A model generated the notes under the pieces. That model was given only the letters and a program-made list of their open reading frames with translations. It ran no database searches and was not told the DNA's origin. The position numbers were made by a program, and so were the translations under genes. A stretch of DNA of 64,000 bases from a virus: positions 1 through 64,000 of the IMG/VR virus record IMGVR_UViG_3300045051_000720; one strand, 5' to 3'. Of the stretch, positions 17,459 to 57,740 are shown one piece after another (within the stretch, counting starts at the first letter, position 1; the number at the start of each line of letters is the position of its first letter).

Positions 17459-18429
17459 TCAAGTGTCTGATCGATGATTCGGAGCACCCCTCCTATGCCG
17501 CTCTCCACACCTATGTGTGGAGGACGTATCACATGGGCAAGGAGTCGTATTATCGCACCTATCTCCCGCGCCACGATCTGCTTACGGGACAACCCATTCC
17601 CTTCAAGGATGCCGAGCAGTATCTGGGCGCTGACTTCGCCAACCGCGTCAACCTGAAGAAATGGCTTGCCACTCAGCCGCGCGAGGTGGGGTTGGCGTGG
17701 GCCAAGGAGTGGTTGGCCAAGCGCAAGGTCTCCAAGGGTCTGATCTATGCCCCGTCGCAGGCCGAGTTGCGCACCCTATGCACGCCCACGATGCCCTATT
17801 ACGAGGCAGTGGCCGCGGACGAGGGGGGCTACTATGGAATCACCACCGCAATGGGATTCAAGCTGCGCTATGTAAAGGGTCTGGTGGGTCAGACGCTACC
17901 CGCCGGAGTGTCGGTCATACAAGACACTCGCGAGCAGGCTCCTGTCAAGCTGGACCTTCCAACCCGTATCGATACCCTAGATGTAGGCGACTATGCTCTT
18001 GCATCGCCACATGACCAAGGCGTCCGCATCGAGCGCAAGTCTCTCGGTGATTTTTGTGGCACGCTCAGCGCGCGCAAACAGGTGCGCGAAGGTAAGACCA
18101 AGACGACCGAGTGGACAGCCTACGAACGCTTTGACCGTGAACTCACGCGCGCCAGTGAGGCAGGTCTCTACGTTGTCATGATGGTCGAGGCCAATATCAA
18201 TGACGCCCAACGATTCGACTACCTTCCTCAGACCAAATGGGTGAAGGCCACGCCCGCGCACATCCTGCACAACCTGCGCACGCTGTTGACCAAGTATCCC
18301 CTCTCGTTTCAGGTCGTGTTCTGCGATGGGCGAAAGGAGCTGGCAGACAAGATGACGCGCGTGCTGGCGTTGGGCGCGGCGGTGAGGTCGTACGACCTTC
18401 AGTACCACCATGAGGAGGGTCTCCTGTGA
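17455..18429 (+). CDS. ERCC4-type nuclease
   Basis: 324 residues from the ATG overlapping the zinc-finger stop. The XPF/ERCC4 nuclease signature is clear: VIQDTREQAP (~154-163), TLDVGDYAL (~174-182) and the catalytic IERKSLGDFCGTL (~192-204). The N-terminal ~140 residues are an unrecognised helical region. A stand-alone ERCC4 nuclease just before the large terminase could resolve branched replication intermediates before packaging, a role filled in other phages by endonuclease VII or RusA. It couples by GTGA to the terminase. Confidence 0.8.
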   Translation: MIKCLIDDSEHPSYAALHTYVWRTYHMGKESYYRTYLPRHDLLTGQPIPFKDAEQYLGADFANRVNLKKWLATQPREVGLAWAKEWLAKRKVSKGLIYAPSQAELRTLCTPTMPYYEAVAADEGGYYGITTAMGFKLRYVKGLVGQTLPAGVSVIQDTREQAPVKLDLPTRIDTLDVGDYALASPHDQGVRIERKSLGDFCGTLSARKQVREGKTKTTEWTAYERFDRELTRASEAGLYVVMMVEANINDAQRFDYLPQTKWVKATPAHILHNLRTLLTKYPLSFQVVFCDGRKELADKMTRVLALGAAVRSYDLQYHHEEGLL

Positions 18430-20405
18430 GCTGGAAGGGCAACGGAAACAACCCCCCGCCCGACCCGATCACGGACTGGAACGCCGAGTTCGAGTGCCTG
18501 CTTGACTACAACGAGCTGCCCGAGGACATGGCGCGCAAGACCCTTGGGCGCTTCCTGATGACCAATATCGGGATGCTAGTCGAGATCCTCACACGCAAGA
18601 TGCTGGAGCCTTACCAGCGCATCGTGCTGAAGGGTTGGCTGAACAAAAATTTCTCACTCACCATCGCGGGCCGTGCGTGGGGTAAGAGCACCGTTGCGTC
18701 GCATTTCTGCTATCTCTATTGCCTGCTCAACCCGGGCCACCATATCTTGATCTGCGCCGCGACCTTCAGGTCCAGCCGTCAGATTGTTGAACGCATCGAT
18801 GAATGGGCCAACGCCGCGGGTGGTGAGTTATTGCGTGAGACGCTCAAAGCAACCCCGACCGGTGGTACCATCATCAAGAAGCAGGACCTGTATCGCATCT
18901 GGTTCAAGAACGGTTCATCGGTCACAGCAGTACCTCTGGGCGATCCCGACAATCTGCGCGGCTTTCGGTGCAACGTACTGATGATCGACGAAGGCCTGCT
19001 CATCCCACAGCACACCATCAACATGGTGCTCAAGCCGTTCCTCGCAGGCGGCGCCGACGCGACCAAAAAGCAACGCATCCGCCGCCGCGAGGCGCGCCTC
19101 ATCGAGATGGGCAAGATGCAGGCCAAGGACAAGGTCAAGTTCAAGGCCGACAGCAAGATGATCATCATCTCGTCCGCCTCCTACCAGTGGGAGGAGCTAT
19201 ACAAAGACATCTACAAACCCTACCGCGCCATCATCGAGGCAACGGATGTCGAGCGTCCGCGCGCCGAGGAGAACGAGAAGGGGGCATCCAGTTACCTCGT
19301 CCATCAGCTCTCCTACAAGATGGTCAACCCCGACCTGATGGACACCAGCATCCTTGAGGAAATCCGCGAGAAGCGCATCCCCGAGAGCGTCATCAAGCGC
19401 GAATACGAGGCACAGTTTGTCAACGAGTCGGGAGGCTTCTTCAGCGCGCGCCAGATGGCAGATTGCACTATCCCACTTGGCCAGCGGCCTTGTATCGAAA
19501 TCGTGGGCGAGCGTAACGCCGAATACATCCTCGCCGTCGACCCGGCGGGTGGCAGCATCGGTAACGATGCGGCGGGTGACCATTTCGCGATGTGTGTCAT
19601 CAAGATCATCCAGCGCGCCAAGGATGGCAAGAAGATCGGGTTAGTGGTACACCAATACGCGTGCGCGGGCAAGGACATGAAGCACCACCTAGCTTACATG
19701 TACTACCTGCTCAAGCGGTTCAACGTGGTCTATGTCGTGATGGACTCAACCGGTGGCGAGAACATGAGCTTTTTGACGATGTGCAACGAAAGCGAGTACT
19801 TCAAATCGCGCAAGATGGAGTTGAAGGCTATCGAGGCGGACTTCGCCAAGGAAGGGTTTGACGACACCGTCGCCGCGGTGCGCCGCTCGTACAACGCCGA
19901 CAGCAGTTTGCGGCGCATCGTGCATAACCAGTATTTCTCCTCCAGCATCATCAAGGCCGGTAACGACCACCTACGCGCCTGTTTTGAGCAGAAGACCATC
20001 ATGTTCGCGTCCAAGGCAGCGTCAGTGGACGGCGCAGTGGCTCAGATGTGCCAATGTGATATACTCGACATTCACAAGACCCATCCCGAATACTATGATC
20101 CTGAGTTGGAGGGCAGCGCCTCCATGCACGAGTTCGTCATCTATCAGGATGCCATGATGGACCTCGTCAAGACCGAGTGTGCGCTGATCGAGGTGAAGGC
20201 GAGCCCGCTGGGGCATCTGACCTATGATTTGCCCCAGCACATGACGCGTAACCGGAAGGATGAGAGGCGCTCCAGAAAGGACTCATATTCAGCACTTTGG
20301 CTAGGTGTCTGGGGCCTTAAGATATATCTTGCTATGTTGGAGATGCCCCCGCCCGAGGATGACACCTTCGTCCCTGTAGCTATCCCGATGCCGGGGGTGG
20401 GATAA
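18426..20405 (+). CDS. Terminase large subunit
   Basis: 659 residues from a GTG overlapping the nuclease stop (GTGA). The ATPase shows an adenine-binding region (EPYQRIVLKGWLNKNF), a Walker A variant AGRAWGKST (~81-89) and Walker B VLMIDEG (~184-190). The C-terminal RNase-H-like nuclease begins at YILAVDPAGGS with the first catalytic Asp, followed by YVVMDSTGG. It packages DNA into the prohead through the portal encoded next. Length and motif order are normal for a phage terminase. Confidence 0.9.
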   Translation: MSWKGNGNNPPPDPITDWNAEFECLLDYNELPEDMARKTLGRFLMTNIGMLVEILTRKMLEPYQRIVLKGWLNKNFSLTIAGRAWGKSTVASHFCYLYCLLNPGHHILICAATFRSSRQIVERIDEWANAAGGELLRETLKATPTGGTIIKKQDLYRIWFKNGSSVTAVPLGDPDNLRGFRCNVLMIDEGLLIPQHTINMVLKPFLAGGADATKKQRIRRREARLIEMGKMQAKDKVKFKADSKMIIISSASYQWEELYKDIYKPYRAIIEATDVERPRAEENEKGASSYLVHQLSYKMVNPDLMDTSILEEIREKRIPESVIKREYEAQFVNESGGFFSARQMADCTIPLGQRPCIEIVGERNAEYILAVDPAGGSIGNDAAGDHFAMCVIKIIQRAKDGKKIGLVVHQYACAGKDMKHHLAYMYYLLKRFNVVYVVMDSTGGENMSFLTMCNESEYFKSRKMELKAIEADFAKEGFDDTVAAVRRSYNADSSLRRIVHNQYFSSSIIKAGNDHLRACFEQKTIMFASKAASVDGAVAQMCQCDILDIHKTHPEYYDPELEGSASMHEFVIYQDAMMDLVKTECALIEVKASPLGHLTYDLPQHMTRNRKDERRSRKDSYSALWLGVWGLKIYLAMLEMPPPEDDTFVPVAIPMPGVG

Positions 20406-20428: not shown

Positions 20429-21217
20429 GTGAGAATCAAAGTCATTTCTGTGCCAAATCAAACCACTTCTAAGCAATGCCCTAGATGTCAAATTGTAAAA
20501 GAGTTGACAGATTTTCGCGTTGACCGCTCGAAAATATCTGGATACGGATCACATTGTAAAGCATGTGAGGCGGCTCGACGACGCGAGTGGTATGCGTCTC
20601 ATCGTGAAGAAAGCGCGGCCAATCACGCCGATTGGGTAGACGAAAATCGAGAGTATCTAAATGCATATCGGCGCGCTAGACAGTCTAAGGACACAGAATT
20701 TGTTGGTAAAAATAAATCTCGCACTAGACAAACACACGAAGAATGTGTTGAGAAAAGAAAAAATCAAGCAAGGGCATATTATCGCCGTACAGCCGATCAA
20801 CAGAAGGCCTATCGAAAAGAATATAACGCCACGCATAAGAAAGAAAATGCGCAACGCAAGGCAAGACAAGAAAGAGAGCATATCAATTACAAAATAGCTA
20901 ACCGTCTTCGAGCGAGAACAAGACTAGCTTTACGCGCCCAATCTAGCCAGAAACAATATACTCTAAACGAATTTTTGGGTTGTACACCTGAATTTCTGCG
21001 ACACTGGATTGAACAGCAATTTCGTGATGGAATGACTTGGGATAATTGGGGGTTGGGGGATGGCAAGTGGCATATCGATCACATCCGTCCCTGCGCATCG
21101 TTTGACCTCACCGATCCCGAACAACAGAAGCAGTGTTTCCATTATACTAATCTCCGCCCACTCTGGGCGATAGAAAATCTATCCAAAGGTGGTAAACTAT
21201 GTCACGAAAATACGTAA
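20429..21217 (+). CDS. HNH homing endonuclease
   Basis: Up to 262 residues. The N-terminus has a zinc-binding pair (CPRCQIVKELTDF ... CKACEAARR), then a long Arg/Lys/Gln-rich helical region. The HNH nuclease is at the C-terminus: WHIDHIRPCASFDLTDPEQQ and FHYTNLRPLWAIENLSKG (H-H ... N). It is a free-standing homing enzyme. It is AT-rich compared with the terminase before it, which marks recent acquisition. The GTG at 20,450 is an alternative start that lies 22 bases after the late motif and is more plausible if that motif is the promoter. Its end overlaps the portal start by 19 bases. Confidence 0.85.
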   Translation: MRIKVISVPNQTTSKQCPRCQIVKELTDFRVDRSKISGYGSHCKACEAARRREWYASHREESAANHADWVDENREYLNAYRRARQSKDTEFVGKNKSRTRQTHEECVEKRKNQARAYYRRTADQQKAYRKEYNATHKKENAQRKARQEREHINYKIANRLRARTRLALRAQSSQKQYTLNEFLGCTPEFLRHWIEQQFRDGMTWDNWGLGDGKWHIDHIRPCASFDLTDPEQQKQCFHYTNLRPLWAIENLSKGGKLCHENT

Positions 21218-23238
21218 AAAAATCCGAATACTGGTCCCAACCTCGGAAGCCTATTATGGTTCCGGCTATAGCGGCCCCCAGCACACCATCTAATACGCAA
21301 GTACCATTTGGAGATGTAGAGGCGGCATTTGATGGCCACGCGCATTATTCCGCTACAGCCGCATGTGGAGGGGGTGATGTCATAAATACTTCCTATCGAG
21401 ATAGTGCGGCTCCGTCCGTATTAGATGTCAATCGTTACCGAAACATTAGACAAGGGATTGTGCCGATTTCAGAAATCGAAGGTAATTATTCAGTATTCGG
21501 GGCCATCGATCTTGTTTATAGAGCTTATTACAATTTCGCGCTTTTGCGAAACGCCATTTCGATGCTTACTGATTTCAGTTCAGGAAAGATCAATGTCAAG
21601 ACCTCTAATAAACGAGTAAAAACCTTCATTGAAACGTGGCTTGATGCTATTGGCATCAATGATCTTCAGCAGAAAGCTTTTCTTGAATACTATCGTTCGG
21701 GTAATGTCTGGTTTTACAAATTTAGCGGTAAAATTAGCGACGATGGGTTGAACATGCTTAGGCGTGCCTATGCTAAAGAAACGGTCAGAGGTCAACAAGC
21801 ATTTTCGAGTCGGCAGAGCAAGATTGTTCCCATTCGGTATATCATACTGAATCCAATGCAAGTCTATTTAATGCGTGGGGCGTCCTATACCTATGGCTAC
21901 GTGCGCATGCTATCGACCTACGAGATCGAGCGGCTCAAGAACCCCCAGACCGACGAAGACAAGCAGATCTTCGACTCGTTCCCAAAGGACATCCAGCGCC
22001 AGATCAAGCAAGGCGGCGCATGGAGGTACCTGTTCGTGCCACTCGACCAAAACCGGCTCTACTACGTGTTCTATCGCAAGACCGACTACGAGCCCCTTGC
22101 GGTACCGATGGCCTTTCCTCTGCTGAACGACATCGAGTTCAAGCTGGAGCTGCGACGCATCGACATGACGCTCGCGCGCACGATGGAGCAAGTCGTGTTG
22201 CTCGTCACGGCGGGACAGAAGGCCGATCAGTTCAATCAGGCCCCCGGCAACAAGCAGCTGGTTGCTCTCCAGAATATCTTCCAGAATCAAACCATCGGGC
22301 GGGTGCTGGTCGCCGACTACACGACCAAGCTGGAGTGGTGCATCCCCGATCTCAAGGAGCTGCTCGGTCCCGCCAAGTACGAGCGCGTCGACAAGGACAT
22401 CAAGGAGGGCCTCCAGTACATGTTTTTTGGCGAGGAGAAATTCGCCAACGCCGCCATCAAGATCCGCATCTTCATCGAGTCGCTCAAGGAGGGCCGTCGC
22501 GCCTTCTTAGAGGGATTCCTCATCCCCGAGGTCAAGAAAGTCTGCGAGCAGATGGGCTTCCGCGATGTTCCCACGCTGGAGTACGAGGACATCGTTCTCC
22601 AAGACGAGGCTCTGATGAACCGGCTGTATGTCCAGATGGGCCAGCTGGGTTTCCTCACCCCCGACGAGGTGTTTACGGCGGTCAAGACAGGGGATTTGCC
22701 GACGACGGAGGAGTCCCTAGACCATCAAGAAGCGCACAAGGCCGCGCGCAAGAAGGGGTTGTACGAACCCGTTGCGCCCGCACTAGCCGGCGGCAAGGGT
22801 CGTCCTGACGGCACTCCCGGTACACCTGCGACGCGCCATGTGTCCACCCCGATCGGCCAGACCAAGGCCAGCGAAGACATCGTGCGCGGCGATCATCACT
22901 TCGGCATGGTACGAATCGCCGAGAACCTCGTCGCGATGGACAAGGTACGCGCGGCAGTGGAGGCAACCCTCCTCAAGCAGCACAAGCTAGATGAGCTGAA
23001 CGATGCCCAGCAGATCGTCGCCGCGCAGGTGGCGCAGTCGATTTGCTTCAACGAGCCCGAGGGTCAGTGGCTGAAGGCGGTCAAGCGGTACGTCAAGGAG
23101 CCGCGAGACCCGCCCAAGACCGTGACCGACGAGATCGCCGAGATTCGTGCGGCGTATCACGAGGATGAACACCCGATCAGTCAGTGGCTTGGGGGGGTGT
23201 TGGTGCGCAGCAAGGTGGATTTCACGCCACGGGCGTGA
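21199..23238 (+). CDS. Portal protein
   Basis: 679 residues. Large helical protein in the portal position between terminase and protease. A typical portal core is seen from residue ~95 (GAIDLVYRAYYNFALLRNAI) through a stem/wing region (MLRRAYAKET, IRYIILNPMQVYLM, WRYLFVPLDQNRLYYVFYRK) to a long helical crown. It forms the dodecameric DNA entry channel. The first ~680 bases are AT-rich and differ in codon use from the remainder; see findings. The C-terminal ~160 residues (ALAGGKGRPDGTPGT onward) are flexible. Confidence 0.8.
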   Translation: MSRKYVKKSEYWSQPRKPIMVPAIAAPSTPSNTQVPFGDVEAAFDGHAHYSATAACGGGDVINTSYRDSAAPSVLDVNRYRNIRQGIVPISEIEGNYSVFGAIDLVYRAYYNFALLRNAISMLTDFSSGKINVKTSNKRVKTFIETWLDAIGINDLQQKAFLEYYRSGNVWFYKFSGKISDDGLNMLRRAYAKETVRGQQAFSSRQSKIVPIRYIILNPMQVYLMRGASYTYGYVRMLSTYEIERLKNPQTDEDKQIFDSFPKDIQRQIKQGGAWRYLFVPLDQNRLYYVFYRKTDYEPLAVPMAFPLLNDIEFKLELRRIDMTLARTMEQVVLLVTAGQKADQFNQAPGNKQLVALQNIFQNQTIGRVLVADYTTKLEWCIPDLKELLGPAKYERVDKDIKEGLQYMFFGEEKFANAAIKIRIFIESLKEGRRAFLEGFLIPEVKKVCEQMGFRDVPTLEYEDIVLQDEALMNRLYVQMGQLGFLTPDEVFTAVKTGDLPTTEESLDHQEAHKAARKKGLYEPVAPALAGGKGRPDGTPGTPATRHVSTPIGQTKASEDIVRGDHHFGMVRIAENLVAMDKVRAAVEATLLKQHKLDELNDAQQIVAAQVAQSICFNEPEGQWLKAVKRYVKEPRDPPKTVTDEIAEIRAAYHEDEHPISQWLGGVLVRSKVDFTPRA

Positions 23239-53823: not shown

Positions 53824-54011
53824 GCTTTTCCCAACAGGTCATCAAACACCGGGTCCAATCCGCGCGCCTCGGGCTGAGTGTCCCAATCGCACTCCTCCAA
53901 CGCGCGAATCAAAGCGCGGTATATCGGTCTCCGCTTCTGCACGGGCAGGTCGGCCTCGACAATGGCCTTGACCACCTCGCGCGCTACGTCACTGCCCGCG
54001 GCCCACCCCAT
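53820..54011 (-). CDS. Small helical protein
   Basis: 63 residues (MGWAAGSDVAREVVKAIVEA), acidic at the end, with the ATG inside a TAATG overlap with the upstream gene. The pattern (VREVVKAI...RRPIYRALIRALEECDWDT) resembles small phage proteins seen next to recombination genes. Function unknown. Confidence 0.5.
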   Translation of the reverse strand: MGWAAGSDVAREVVKAIVEADLPVQKRRPIYRALIRALEECDWDTQPEARGLDPVFDDLLGKA

Positions 54012-54832
54012 TACTTCGCCCCCTTCTTGGCTACCTCATCGGCCTTCTTGATGAGCCCGACAAGCAGCCACGCGTCGATGGGTTGAACGCTATCAAACCC
54101 CGTCCACGTTGATGGGTCCCCTTGAATCCTCTCGTTCTGCCGGTCGGGAGTCAATTCCGCATTATGCTTCACCGCCCGCGCTTTGAGCGCCTCAAAGGCA
54201 ATCGGATGCTTACGTTTGGTACAGACCTCCTCAAGCCGTCGCCACGCATCGGCGCTGGCTGGTTGTGCAGACGGAGTATCCTCCTCCTCTTGCTTCAGGG
54301 CCTCGGCGTCAACCTCATCCTCGGAGAGAATGTTGATCTGAAGCGCGCGCTTGACGCACCGCGCGAACGAGCGATTCTCGGCGAAGGCCTCAAGGTATGG
54401 TAGCATCTGCTTGTCCATACTCCGGGTAGAGGCAGAGGCTACGCCAGACGCGATGACCGGGAGCCCATCGGTTTCGTAATTGCCTATCAGCTCAATCTCA
54501 CACACCACCGCGGCGCGCGAGTCGGATGTCTGGAGAGAGTGATACTGGATGGAGCGGTAACCCCTCACATTGAGGAGATAGTTGAACCCCGCCTGCCGGA
54601 TGCGCAGCCATTTCTCAGGAACCAGACTGAGATCGCACTCTCCAATCGGCTTGCCTTGCGTCTTGGCGACCTCCGGTTCCTTGGTGCGGATGACGAAGAG
54701 ATAGGGGGTGGTCAACGCGATGGCGAGCCAGTCAACCCGTCCTTCGGGGGTGAATTTGTAAGGGAAGCCGGGGATGAGACCGTCTTCGTCGCGCTTGAAG
54801 GAGGGGCGGGTGGACTTGGGAGAATCGCTCAT
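54011..54832 (-). CDS. Possible Rad52-like single-strand annealing protein
   Basis: 273 residues. The core (GRVDWLAIALTTPYLFVIRT; AVVCEIELIGNYETDGLPVI; SARSTDK-like SASTRSMDKQMLPYLEAFAE; SFARCVKRALQINILSEDEV) has beta-beta-beta-alpha character and an NRSFARCVKRAL helix, a layout like phage Rad52/ERF-type annealing proteins. The C-terminal ~80 residues look like a linker plus helical end. Its ATG overlaps the methyltransferase stop (ATGA). Assignment is tentative. It may duplicate the function of RecT at 4.4 kb. Confidence 0.45.
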   Translation of the reverse strand: MSDSPKSTRPSFKRDEDGLIPGFPYKFTPEGRVDWLAIALTTPYLFVIRTKEPEVAKTQGKPIGECDLSLVPEKWLRIRQAGFNYLLNVRGYRSIQYHSLQTSDSRAAVVCEIELIGNYETDGLPVIASGVASASTRSMDKQMLPYLEAFAENRSFARCVKRALQINILSEDEVDAEALKQEEEDTPSAQPASADAWRRLEEVCTKRKHPIAFEALKARAVKHNAELTPDRQNERIQGDPSTWTGFDSVQPIDAWLLVGLIKKADEVAKKGAK

Positions 54833-56484
54833 GGGTTCAGTCGGTTATAGAGAGTGACGAAAGCCTTGGCAACGACATCGGGGTCAACCCCGTTTCCGAG
54901 GAGTCGGAGTTCATCAACACGACTATCCACGGTCTCGCACAGCTTGGTGTAGTCCAGCCAATCGGGAGCCCCATCAGGGTCTCCACCCAGCGTGGGTTGA
55001 GCTGACCCGTTTTCAGGTTGCGTGGTCCCTCTATCTGGGCAGGCAGGTCGTTGGCTGTCTCCTTGTATGCTCGCCCCTGCTGCCCCTTCCAGTCGCGAGC
55101 TTGGGGTGTGTTCCACTGGTCGCTCACCTGCTTGCTCAGAGCCACATAGCCGTCTTGACTGTTGGTCTGCTGGCGTTCCTCCGCACGGGGCGTGGACCAT
55201 TTCAACTTGGCTGATGGTAGTTGACGTACCTCCGCATCCAGCTGGTTGATCCCCGGACGGTTTGAGTCTTGGTGACTGTATCCCCGAGGAGTCGGCCACT
55301 GTTGGTTGACTGCACTCGGTAGCATCAGATCCCCCTTGCTGCCCGATTGGTTCGGACCGCCCTTCTCGCCGTCTGTTGCTCGTGCTGTCGGCCACATCAC
55401 TTGACCCACTTGGGTCTCCAGATTGGGGAAGCGGTCCTTGTCCCAGACTGACTCGGGCGTTATCGTCGCTGCCATGACCGAGCACACTCGCGGCGTTGCC
55501 CACTGTTTGGCTTCCGCCTCTAGTATCTTGCCCCCGTTCAGATTGGGGCGACTCCCCGGATTCCCCGCCCTTGGCGTCGGCCACAAACCGTTTGTGCCGA
55601 TTGGCGATGCGGGTGTGGTTGTGGATGACTCGGGCTGGCTCCCACCACCATTGGTCGGGTCCGGGCGGGAGGGGGCGGCATAAACGAACGTCCCGAGGTG
55701 ATGGACCCATTCCCTCAGGTTGGAGCAACCCCCTTTGGTTCTCGCTTGGTCTAGCGCCGCTTGGTCTTTCGGCTCCATCACATCCATCACCTGAGGCGTT
55801 GGCCACTGCTTGTTCTCCACCATCCAAACCACCCGAGGTAGCACATCCTTCCTGACCTTGCCGTCCCTCCGTATCATGGAGGTCCCCAAGTCGCCCGTAT
55901 CCCGATAGTCTCTGGTGGTGGTGGGCCATTGCGAGGATGAAGACCCGCTTGCGCTGGTGGCTCGCGCCGATTTCAGCCGAACTGAATACTCCCGCCGTTG
56001 CTCGGTAACCCACTCGTTCCAGCTCTCGGAGGACATGGAGCAGAACGGGCGTTCCTGCGGGGTCTCGCCAACTTGCTCCAGCGAGCTTGGCACTGATGAT
56101 ACCCTCGACGTTTTCGAGGAACACGAGGTCTGGCTGGCACTCGGTGATGCCGCGCAGGATGTGGGGGAAGAGGTGTCGTGGGTCGTCGTCCCCCCCCCGC
56201 TTGCCCGCTGAGCTGAAGGGTTGACAAGGAAAGCCCCCAGAGAGGAGACCCACTCGGTCACGAAACGCTCCCCATGGGAAGGTCTTAACATCCGTCCAGA
56301 TAGGTGCTGTGTCCAAGAGTCCCGACTCCATTTTCGCGACCAGATTCGCACAGGCGAAGGCTTCGATCTCACTAACAGCGACCGCGCGCAAGCCTCGGAT
56401 GACTCGGCTGAGTCCAAGGTCAATGCCTCCGTAACCTGCGCAGAGGGAGATATGGTTGATAGGATGGGTTGGGGTAGAATCCAC
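54829..56484 (-). CDS. DNA (cytosine-5) methyltransferase
   Basis: 551 residues from the GTG at 56,482-56,484; an in-frame GTG 54 bases upstream is possible but lies in the previous gene. Motif I HISLCAGYGGIDLGL (~11-25), motif IV SGGFPCQPFSSAG (~82-94, catalytic Cys 87), motif VI FLENVEG (~122-128), motif VIII ASHQRKRVFILA (~174-185), and motif X DELRLLGNGVDPDVVAKAF at the C-terminus. Between VIII and X lies an unusual ~310-residue, Gly/Ser-rich region with recurring V-A-D/N-S/A elements where the target-recognition domain should be. The entire gene is overlapped by a second open frame on the same strand. A methyltransferase next to glycosyltransferases could be part of DNA modification. Confidence 0.85.
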   Translation of the reverse strand: MDSTPTHPINHISLCAGYGGIDLGLSRVIRGLRAVAVSEIEAFACANLVAKMESGLLDTAPIWTDVKTFPWGAFRDRVGLLSGGFPCQPFSSAGKRGGDDDPRHLFPHILRGITECQPDLVFLENVEGIISAKLAGASWRDPAGTPVLLHVLRELERVGYRATAGVFSSAEIGASHQRKRVFILAMAHHHQRLSGYGRLGDLHDTEGRQGQEGCATSGGLDGGEQAVANASGDGCDGAERPSGARPSENQRGLLQPEGMGPSPRDVRLCRPLPPGPDQWWWEPARVIHNHTRIANRHKRFVADAKGGESGESPQSERGQDTRGGSQTVGNAASVLGHGSDDNARVSLGQGPLPQSGDPSGSSDVADSTSNRRREGRSEPIGQQGGSDATECSQPTVADSSGIQSPRLKPSGDQPAGCGGTSTTISQVEMVHAPCGGTPADQQSRRLCGSEQAGERPVEHTPSSRLEGAAGASIQGDSQRPACPDRGTTQPENGSAQPTLGGDPDGAPDWLDYTKLCETVDSRVDELRLLGNGVDPDVVAKAFVTLYNRLNP

Positions 56485-56486
56485 AT
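54837..56486 (-). CDS. Overprinted +1-frame ORF with W-P-T-P repeats
   Basis: 549 codons without a stop, in the +1 frame relative to the methyltransferase. Its ATG (56,484-56,486) shares its G with the methyltransferase GTG (ATGTG). From about codon 170 it carries a distinct sequence: WNEWVTEQRREYSVRLKSAR, then eight imperfect W-(P/A/S/N)-T-(P/T/A)-(R/Q) repeats, and near the end LNPRWVETLMGLPIGWT, a phrase I know from C-terminal parts of other phage methyltransferase-type proteins. It may be an independent protein, or be joined to the methyltransferase by a +1 shift. The N-terminal third has no recognisable features. Confidence 0.45.
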   Translation of the reverse strand: MWILPQPILSTISPSAQVTEALTLDSAESSEACARSLLVRSKPSPVRIWSRKWSRDSWTQHLSGRMLRPSHGERFVTEWVSSLGAFLVNPSAQRASGGGTTTHDTSSPTSCAASPSASQTSCSSKTSRVSSVPSSLEQVGETPQERPFCSMSSESWNEWVTEQRREYSVRLKSARATSASGSSSSQWPTTTRDYRDTGDLGTSMIRRDGKVRKDVLPRVVWMVENKQWPTPQVMDVMEPKDQAALDQARTKGGCSNLREWVHHLGTFVYAAPSRPDPTNGGGSQPESSTTTPASPIGTNGLWPTPRAGNPGSRPNLNGGKILEAEAKQWATPRVCSVMAATITPESVWDKDRFPNLETQVGQVMWPTARATDGEKGGPNQSGSKGDLMLPSAVNQQWPTPRGYSHQDSNRPGINQLDAEVRQLPSAKLKWSTPRAEERQQTNSQDGYVALSKQVSDQWNTPQARDWKGQQGRAYKETANDLPAQIEGPRNLKTGQLNPRWVETLMGLPIGWTTPSCARPWIVVLMNSDSSETGLTPMSLPRLSSLSITD

Positions 56487-56489
56487 TCG

Positions 56490-57740
56490 TCAAGGGGTCG
56501 GGTGTAGGGTACAAAGCATGTGTTGCTGGTCCCGCCACAGCGCGGGGTCGTCAATCAGATCGGCAGTGTTCGCGGCGAGGGAGTCGATGAACTGCCCAGC
56601 GGCGAGGTGGGCATATGAGATCGCAACCTTCCCACCCGACAAGATGTATTTGTTCGTCTTGAACCTCACTCTCCCATTCTGGGCGAGTTGACCAACGATG
56701 TCAAGCCTGTTCTCGGGGGTGTCGGGGCGGTTGGTATAGGTCAGGACAGACCCTATCCAGTCATCGCGCGTGGGGTCGCGCTGGACCCCCACAGTGACAT
56801 GATCGAAGTACCGGAACCGGATGTCCGCGATTTTCTTCTCGTCAGTCTCCCGCGTGTAAAACGCATGATTCGCCGCGAACAGCGCGCGGATGGAGTCTGC
56901 GTATCCTACCTCTACCTCACCCAGTTCGTGGCTATAGGTCAGGATGGACGGGCGCGCTTGCTGGAGCAGGCCGAGGTCAATCGGAGCCTTGGTGACGATG
57001 TGGATCTTGCGGCCCGTCTGGAGAACCTGTACCAGCACGTCCATGTTGTGCTCGTGGTCCATGCGGACCGTGATGGGCAGGTCGGGGAGAAATGAAGGCG
57101 CGGGTACCGTATTGGGCACCAGCTCAAGCAGCGTGTGGGAGTAGAGTGGGCCGATGGAGAGAGTCGAGAAGGGGAACTGCTCACCGATGCCAAGGAGGCG
57201 CAACACCGCGTTGGCGACTTGTTCGGGGGGGATCAAATCGATGGTCTTCGGCACCTCCTGCTGGACAAAGGTGGGTCGCCCTCCGTTGCGGTGCGAGACC
57301 AGCAACACGGTCTTGCTCACGTCACACCAGTAGGGGCCGTGGGCCGAGGGGTCCGTGGACCCATACAGGGCGACCAAAGGACGATGAAACGCGCCTGCCA
57401 AGTGTGCGAGCCAGCTGTCGGTTCCCATATGGCACAGCGCGCGCTTGAGGATGAAGGCAGACTGGAGGTACGTCGTCTTGCCGCGCAGGTCGTGGGTGCC
57501 GTTCACCATGGGGTCATCATTCCCGCCCAACAACACGATCCCAATCCGGTTAGCATCCAGCATGGGTTTGAGCAGGCTAACGACCTCCAGCCAGTACGTG
57601 TACATCTTCGCCCCTTGCTTCGAGCCCGTCTGGAGCGTGATGTAGCGGTCGTGCGGCTGGGGGTAGAAGGCCTCCATGATAGAGGGTTGGTCGAGGAGGA
57701 GGCCCGTGCTGCGGGCATAGGTGGAGGCGAGCTTCGTCAT
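56490..57740 (-). CDS. GT9-type glycosyltransferase, C-terminal half
   Basis: 416 residues. Residues ~30-180 match the C-terminal nucleotide-sugar-binding domain of heptosyltransferase-like GT9 enzymes: RYITLQTGSKQGAKMYTYWL, IGIVLLGGNDDP, ILKRALCHMGTDSWLAHLAG, RPLVALYGSTDPSAHGPYW. The matching N-terminal domain is at the end of the preceding gene, with an ATGA overlap at 57,737-57,740. The remaining ~200 residues (IHIVTKAPIDLGLLQQARPS, FRYFDHVTVGVQRDPTRDDW) are an additional domain I cannot name. It may glycosylate phage DNA bases or a virion or host surface sugar. Confidence 0.65.
   Translation of the reverse strand: MTKLASTYARSTGLLLDQPSIMEAFYPQPHDRYITLQTGSKQGAKMYTYWLEVVSLLKPMLDANRIGIVLLGGNDDPMVNGTHDLRGKTTYLQSAFILKRALCHMGTDSWLAHLAGAFHRPLVALYGSTDPSAHGPYWCDVSKTVLLVSHRNGGRPTFVQQEVPKTIDLIPPEQVANAVLRLLGIGEQFPFSTLSIGPLYSHTLLELVPNTVPAPSFLPDLPITVRMDHEHNMDVLVQVLQTGRKIHIVTKAPIDLGLLQQARPSILTYSHELGEVEVGYADSIRALFAANHAFYTRETDEKKIADIRFRYFDHVTVGVQRDPTRDDWIGSVLTYTNRPDTPENRLDIVGQLAQNGRVRFKTNKYILSGGKVAISYAHLAAGQFIDSLAANTADLIDDPALWRDQQHMLCTLHPTP

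Follow-up and report, generated by a model that had tools for sequence, protein, structure and literature searches.

Does the long open frame that lies over a phage C5-cytosine methyltransferase gene encode a protein of its own and, if so, what has that protein to do with the methyltransferase? The question is raised by a locus in the window analysed here, a stretch of 64,000 nucleotides that is part of a 219-kb virus record (IMGVR_UViG_3300045051_000720). On the minus strand, two frames, designated A and B, are both open over the same ~1,650 bases (54829-56486), an arrangement of a kind that annotation pipelines usually dismiss when they meet long same-strand overlaps in bacteria and phages. 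We consider it probable, at about 85%, that the locus encodes a two-subunit C5-cytosine methyltransferase, alpha (from A) and beta (from B), read in two frames of the same DNA. The features of the locus are as follows.

54829..56484, minus strand: frame A (alpha), C5-cytosine methyltransferase, 551 aa; GTG start at 56484, stop at 54829
54837..56486, minus strand: frame B (beta), W-P-T-P modules and motif IX-like C terminus, 549 aa; ATG start, +1 frame of A
56482..56486, minus strand: ATGTG dual start, ATG of B and GTG of A, with the G common to both
55939..56484, minus strand: catalytic region, motifs I-VIII of A (A residues 1-182); codon-position differences, 20 pairs
55965..56030, minus strand: B helix, B residues 153-174, WNEWVTEQRREYSVRLKSAR, over the motif VII-VIII region of A; AlphaFold pLDDT ~90
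55002..55928, minus strand: eight W-x-T-P modules, B residues 187-495, probable target-recognition region; A is an open linker
54951..55001, minus strand: motif IX-like C terminus of B, residues 496-512; codon differences, likeness to M.HhaI, pLDDT ~87
54859..54915, minus strand: motif X of A, residues 524-542; codon differences after motif IX
56490..57740, minus strand: upstream glycosyltransferase family 9 gene (PF01075, E=9e-11); stop 3 nt before ATGTG
54011..54832, minus strand: downstream gene, 273 aa; its ATG overlaps the A stop (ATGA)

Two reading frames over one gene

Frame A matches PF00145 in Pfam (E=4.6e-32, residues 28-207 of a 569-aa ORF) and phrog_363 (E=1.2e-49). The 569-aa ORF, the longest in this frame, reaches 56538; the start conserved among homologues is the GTG at 56484. 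A holds motifs I-VIII, with GGFPCQPFS, ENVEG and QRKRVFIL all found and the catalytic PCQ loop among them, and a clear motif X, and it lacks a motif IX of its own. Frame B matches phrog_1008, 'DNA methyltransferase' (E=1.1e-17); searches with B found no domain in Pfam and no match in the PDB, and no relative of its N-terminal 180 residues is known.

The initial annotation, made from the sequence alone, had described two long overlapping frames with matching repeats, and its description holds in detail. A and B are open for 551 and 549 codons, all eight of the W-x-T-P elements that it listed are present in B (at residues 187, 228, 302, 329, 365, 397, 430, and 458), and the V-A-D/N-like elements that it placed opposite them in A were found over most of the eight. 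The sequence GTGGCCGACTCC does read V-A-D-S in A and W-P-T-P in B, and each frame has its own C terminus, LNPRWVETLMGLPIGWT in B and motif X (DELRLLGNGVDPDVVAKAF) in A. The two starts share one base, as had been noted, and the upstream glycosyltransferase gene is probably translationally coupled to them, judging from the position of its stop. The downstream 273-aa protein gave no match in Pfam.

Both frames are kept open in homologous loci

Homologues were retrieved with the catalytic part of A only, 80 loci by a scan of viral contigs and 3 more by a scan of bacterial genomes; B was not used for retrieval, and the test of its openness is therefore unbiased. Three other searches yielded little: BLASTN of the gene against phages gave no match, a scan of viral contigs with B patterns alone found no relatives (the patterns were too specific), and a search of plasmids for a related beta returned only four weak matches. 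The set comprises 74 distinct homologous loci, the window among them. In 71 of these, B has no stop in the catalytic region, which supports the proposal that A and B are genuine overlapping coding frames, and in 65 it extends as far as the motif IX-like site (contig ends cut two of the others). In 69 loci, shuffling of A-synonymous codons within each gene predicted 176 B stops in the catalytic region and none was observed, while the third frame of the same loci contains 544. Left out of this count were L033, L047, and L054, each with a single B stop (TAA, codon 106); the ATG two codons downstream of it may allow a restart, with beta made as two pieces. Reciprocally, B-synonymous shuffling predicted 323 A stops in the module region of 50 loci, and again none was observed. 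Loci entered this set only if A reached motif X; among those outside it, most have motif X in A in a spelling that the search missed, and L049 and L053 have it in B. In the window itself, B contains no stop up to motif IX (5.9 expected; none of 300 A-synonymous shuffles was stop-free) and A none in the module region (8.6 expected). As a negative control, 30 fused single-frame relatives had alternative-frame stops at chance (96 versus 104 expected and 128 versus 131 expected).

The start signal is likewise conserved. Among 82 loci it is ATGTG in 67, GTGTG in 2, and TTGTG in 2, and most of the remainder have two separate starts a few bases apart; in practically all homologous loci the A and B starts lie no more than 11 nt from each other. 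The N-terminal WI(L/I)PK of B is nearly fixed, while the A residues at the same place vary. In Escherichia coli, AUGUG sites can start two overlapping frames, with pqiA, tamA, and narQ as examples of such ambiguous starts (PMC9841429). The likeness is that one sequence gives AUG and GUG to two frames; the second frames in E. coli are not known as whole-gene partner subunits of one enzyme.

These observations bear on an alternative in which programmed frameshifting takes ribosomes from A to B after motif VIII and back to A before motif X, giving one full-length enzyme and no separate beta. In its favour, a double shift of this kind would join the domains in the observed A-B-A order, and some relatives are fused into a single chain. 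A frameshifted enzyme could nevertheless tolerate stops in B across the catalytic region and in A across the modules, yet none is observed there (0 versus 176 and 0 versus 323), and it would have no need of a B start codon beside the A start. We reject it as very improbable.

Selection changes frame along the gene

Codon-position differences were counted over 20 independent pairs of loci. The differences at A positions 1/2/3 were as follows.

Catalytic region: 347/209/627
Module region: 297/114/133
Motif IX: 92/14/8
After motif IX: 57/33/168

Because position 1 of A is position 3 of B, the wobble variation belongs to A, B, B, and A in turn (pooled Fisher p ~1e-31 for the flip). The same change is seen between the window and its nearest relative, L014 (catalytic region, 19/8/54; modules, 31/14/14; Fisher p=7e-6). 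Selection thus acts on A over motifs I-VIII and X and on B over the W-P-T-P modules and motif IX, where A is scarcely more than kept open. Both frames are constrained, rather than one of them alone, and the earlier reading is refined in that the constraint is not uniform along the gene.

B is also constrained over the catalytic region, where variation at A third positions is proportionally lower than in the region of motif X. Synonymous diversity in A, observed over expected, falls to 0.50-0.54 at the B helix, compared with up to 0.94 elsewhere; relatedness of the sequences lowers all of these values, and it is the contrast between columns that counts. A silent positions in this region are depressed where the B residue would change, and several conserved A residues are confined to one codon, with V almost only GTG where B has W and P limited to one codon where B has L. 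The catalytic DNA is 94-99% identical in several pairs of loci whose flanking genes are 79-88% identical, and recent gene exchange could contribute to this high identity.

It might be argued that only A is translated and that B is a shadow of the repeats, codon usage, and high G+C of A. A conserved protein does drag conservation into its +1 frame, and AlphaFold predicts B poorly. A shadow would not make the B wobble position, rather than that of A, the variable one over the modules (297 versus 133) and motif IX (92 versus 8), and synonymous shuffling predicts many B stops. Moreover, the betas of L030, L041, L050, and L055 add W-P-T-P modules beyond the A stop, and fused relatives carry such modules in the methyltransferase's own frame. 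Of the explanations considered, this one is the least probable, and we reject it.

Motif IX and structure models

The motif IX-like segment LNPRWVETLMGLPIGWT, compared with RKLHPRECARVMGYPDSYK of M.HhaI, is identical at 6 of 16 positions (B LNPRWVETLMGLPIGW aligned with M.HhaI LHPRECARVMGYPDSY). The PDB and Pfam yielded no C5-methyltransferase, at E values up to 10, when searched with a 58-column profile of the IX-X region, and for this reason we regard the C-terminal segment of B as likely, and only likely, to be motif IX. The assignment is based on its position, the short sequence likeness to M.HhaI, and the fold of a fused relative, L104, whose AlphaFold model (pTM 0.65) matches M.HaeIII and M.HhaI along the whole of each protein (E ~1e-13). 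The AlphaFold model of the window beta has a mean pLDDT of 48.5, and only a helix (residues 146-175) and the motif IX-like segment (~87) are confident; no confident fold was obtained for the W-x-T-P modules.

Fused, split, and nested relatives

Among the relatives of the locus, the two halves occur fused, split, and nested. In mycobacteriophage DotProduct, gp64 (L001) is one chain with motifs I-VIII, L-P-T-P modules, a motif IX-like WMMGWPAGW, and motif X. Like other single-chain methyltransferases of actinobacteriophages (phrog_363/116/1008), it has the same catalytic motifs, W/L-P-T-P modules, IX, and X as the window; unlike the window, these proteins carry all of them in one frame, the methyltransferase's own, and alternative-frame stops occur at chance. 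Backyardigan gp74/gp73, Arthrobacter phage ArV1 067a/067b, and Streptomyces phage Vash gp32/gp33 are split pairs, in which the first protein has motifs I-VIII and the second, overlapping it in the +1 frame, has the modules, IX, and X. Paenibacillus phage Tadhana gp54/gp55 is nested, as in the window, and in L049 and L053 motif X has moved into B. A single family, phrog_1008, unites the window beta (1e-17), a split beta (6e-78), and the C-terminal half of a fused protein (4e-72), linking beta by homology to that half. Immediately beyond motif VIII, the +1 frame of fused loci such as L001 (3001-3342) still contains one or two W/L-P-T-P remnants, which gives the impression of an overlapping pair merged by a frameshift.

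The same comparison bears on whether B might instead be an unrelated overprinted protein acting outside the methyltransferase, for example an anti-restriction factor or an inhibitor. That B has no Pfam domain and that its N-terminal 180 residues have no known relative would fit such a protein. Its modules and C terminus, however, have homologues in fused single-chain methyltransferases, where they make up the C-terminal half, and motif X switches frames in L049 and L053, neither of which fits. We give this alternative very little credence; the best reading of the sequences is that the A and B products are two halves of one enzyme.

The modules are shuffled between loci

C5-methyltransferases carry target recognition at the position where the modules lie, and the W-x-T-P modules probably set target specificity. 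The 275 modules fall into 116 similarity groups, and a given group can turn up at several positions and on both sides of motif IX. L085 and L087 have identical catalytic DNA and differ in their modules (groups [14,1,36] versus [14,0,0,22]). Such patterns in the sequences indicate that the modules are exchanged as cassettes. In L030, L041, L050, L055, and L058, beta is extended beyond the alpha terminus by additional W-x-T-P modules, which are encoded by single-frame DNA and follow the motif IX-like segment.

A probable two-subunit methyltransferase from one message

Under the two-subunit reading, a single mRNA with a single ribosome-binding site would present the AUGUG double start, with GUG used for alpha and AUG for beta, and both frames would be translated. 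Alpha would give motifs I-VIII (AdoMet binding, the PCQ catalytic loop, and motif VIII) and motif X, and its middle, ~325 residues, would be a linker that is merely stop-free. Beta would bring the motif IX-like segment and, in the form of its W-x-T-P modules, the target-recognition region. The two would assemble into one enzyme methylating phage DNA, presumably to the benefit of its protection, and the exchange of modules by recombination would probably change or add target sites.

The closest known system is M.EcoHK31I (YGGCCR), with its relative M.EaeI. The coding sequence for the small subunit of M.EcoHK31I reportedly lies within that for the large subunit, in a different frame (Lee et al., 1995). 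M.EcoHK31I and M.AquI are two-polypeptide C5-methyltransferases; the larger subunit of M.EcoHK31I has motifs I-VIII and X and the smaller has motif IX, and the second polypeptide of M.AquI has part of the recognition region and motif IX (PMC3404938). The window resembles M.EcoHK31I in having I-VIII and X in one polypeptide and IX in the second, a likeness that hinges on the motif IX assignment. Unlike in M.EcoHK31I, beta has its start in the same AUGUG as alpha and covers almost the whole of alpha; selection on the module region acts in B and not in A, whereas the recognition region of M.EcoHK31I is placed in the larger subunit; and, as compared by motif layout, beta has repeated exchangeable modules. 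M.AquI has a divided variable region and carries motif X on its second subunit. Its placement of X is shared by the split mycobacteriophage pairs and by L049/L053, but not by the window, where X belongs to alpha. The multispecific C5-methyltransferases of Bacillus phages (SPbeta, phi3T) have several target-recognizing units in series between motifs VIII and IX, in a single chain and one frame. The window beta would resemble them, by description, in its serial modules, which are repeated, shuffled, and swapped. A literature search found no open paper on such an arrangement in phages. A motif IX in a separate small subunit (M.EcoHK31I) and a split enzyme (M.AquI) are already known; what is new is an AUGUG start common to both subunits, the location of the recognition region in beta, modules exchanged as cassettes, and a family this broad.

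The locus thus provides an overlap of ~1,650 bases in which comparison of dozens of phages supports both frames, together with a matched negative control, and it widens the M.EcoHK31I precedent to a broad family. It would also account for two kinds of entry in many phage genomes, 'hypothetical proteins' with W-P-T-P elements and 'DNA methylase' genes annotated in pairs, and it suggests that phages vary methylation specificity through cassettes that must work in two frames. We lean, with some reserve, towards the broader view that this is a widespread class of phage methyltransferase, in which beta would be a multicassette specificity subunit written wholly over its catalytic partner, with one AUGUG feeding both and cassettes swapped while two frames stay open. 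If so, a phage could change its methylation targets without separating the halves of the enzyme.

Elsewhere in the window, an HNH-endonuclease-like gene (20429-21217) lies in a stretch of lower G+C content (0.47) between probable terminase (18426-20405) and portal (21199-23238) genes, all three named by reading the sequence, and it looks like a homing endonuclease insertion.
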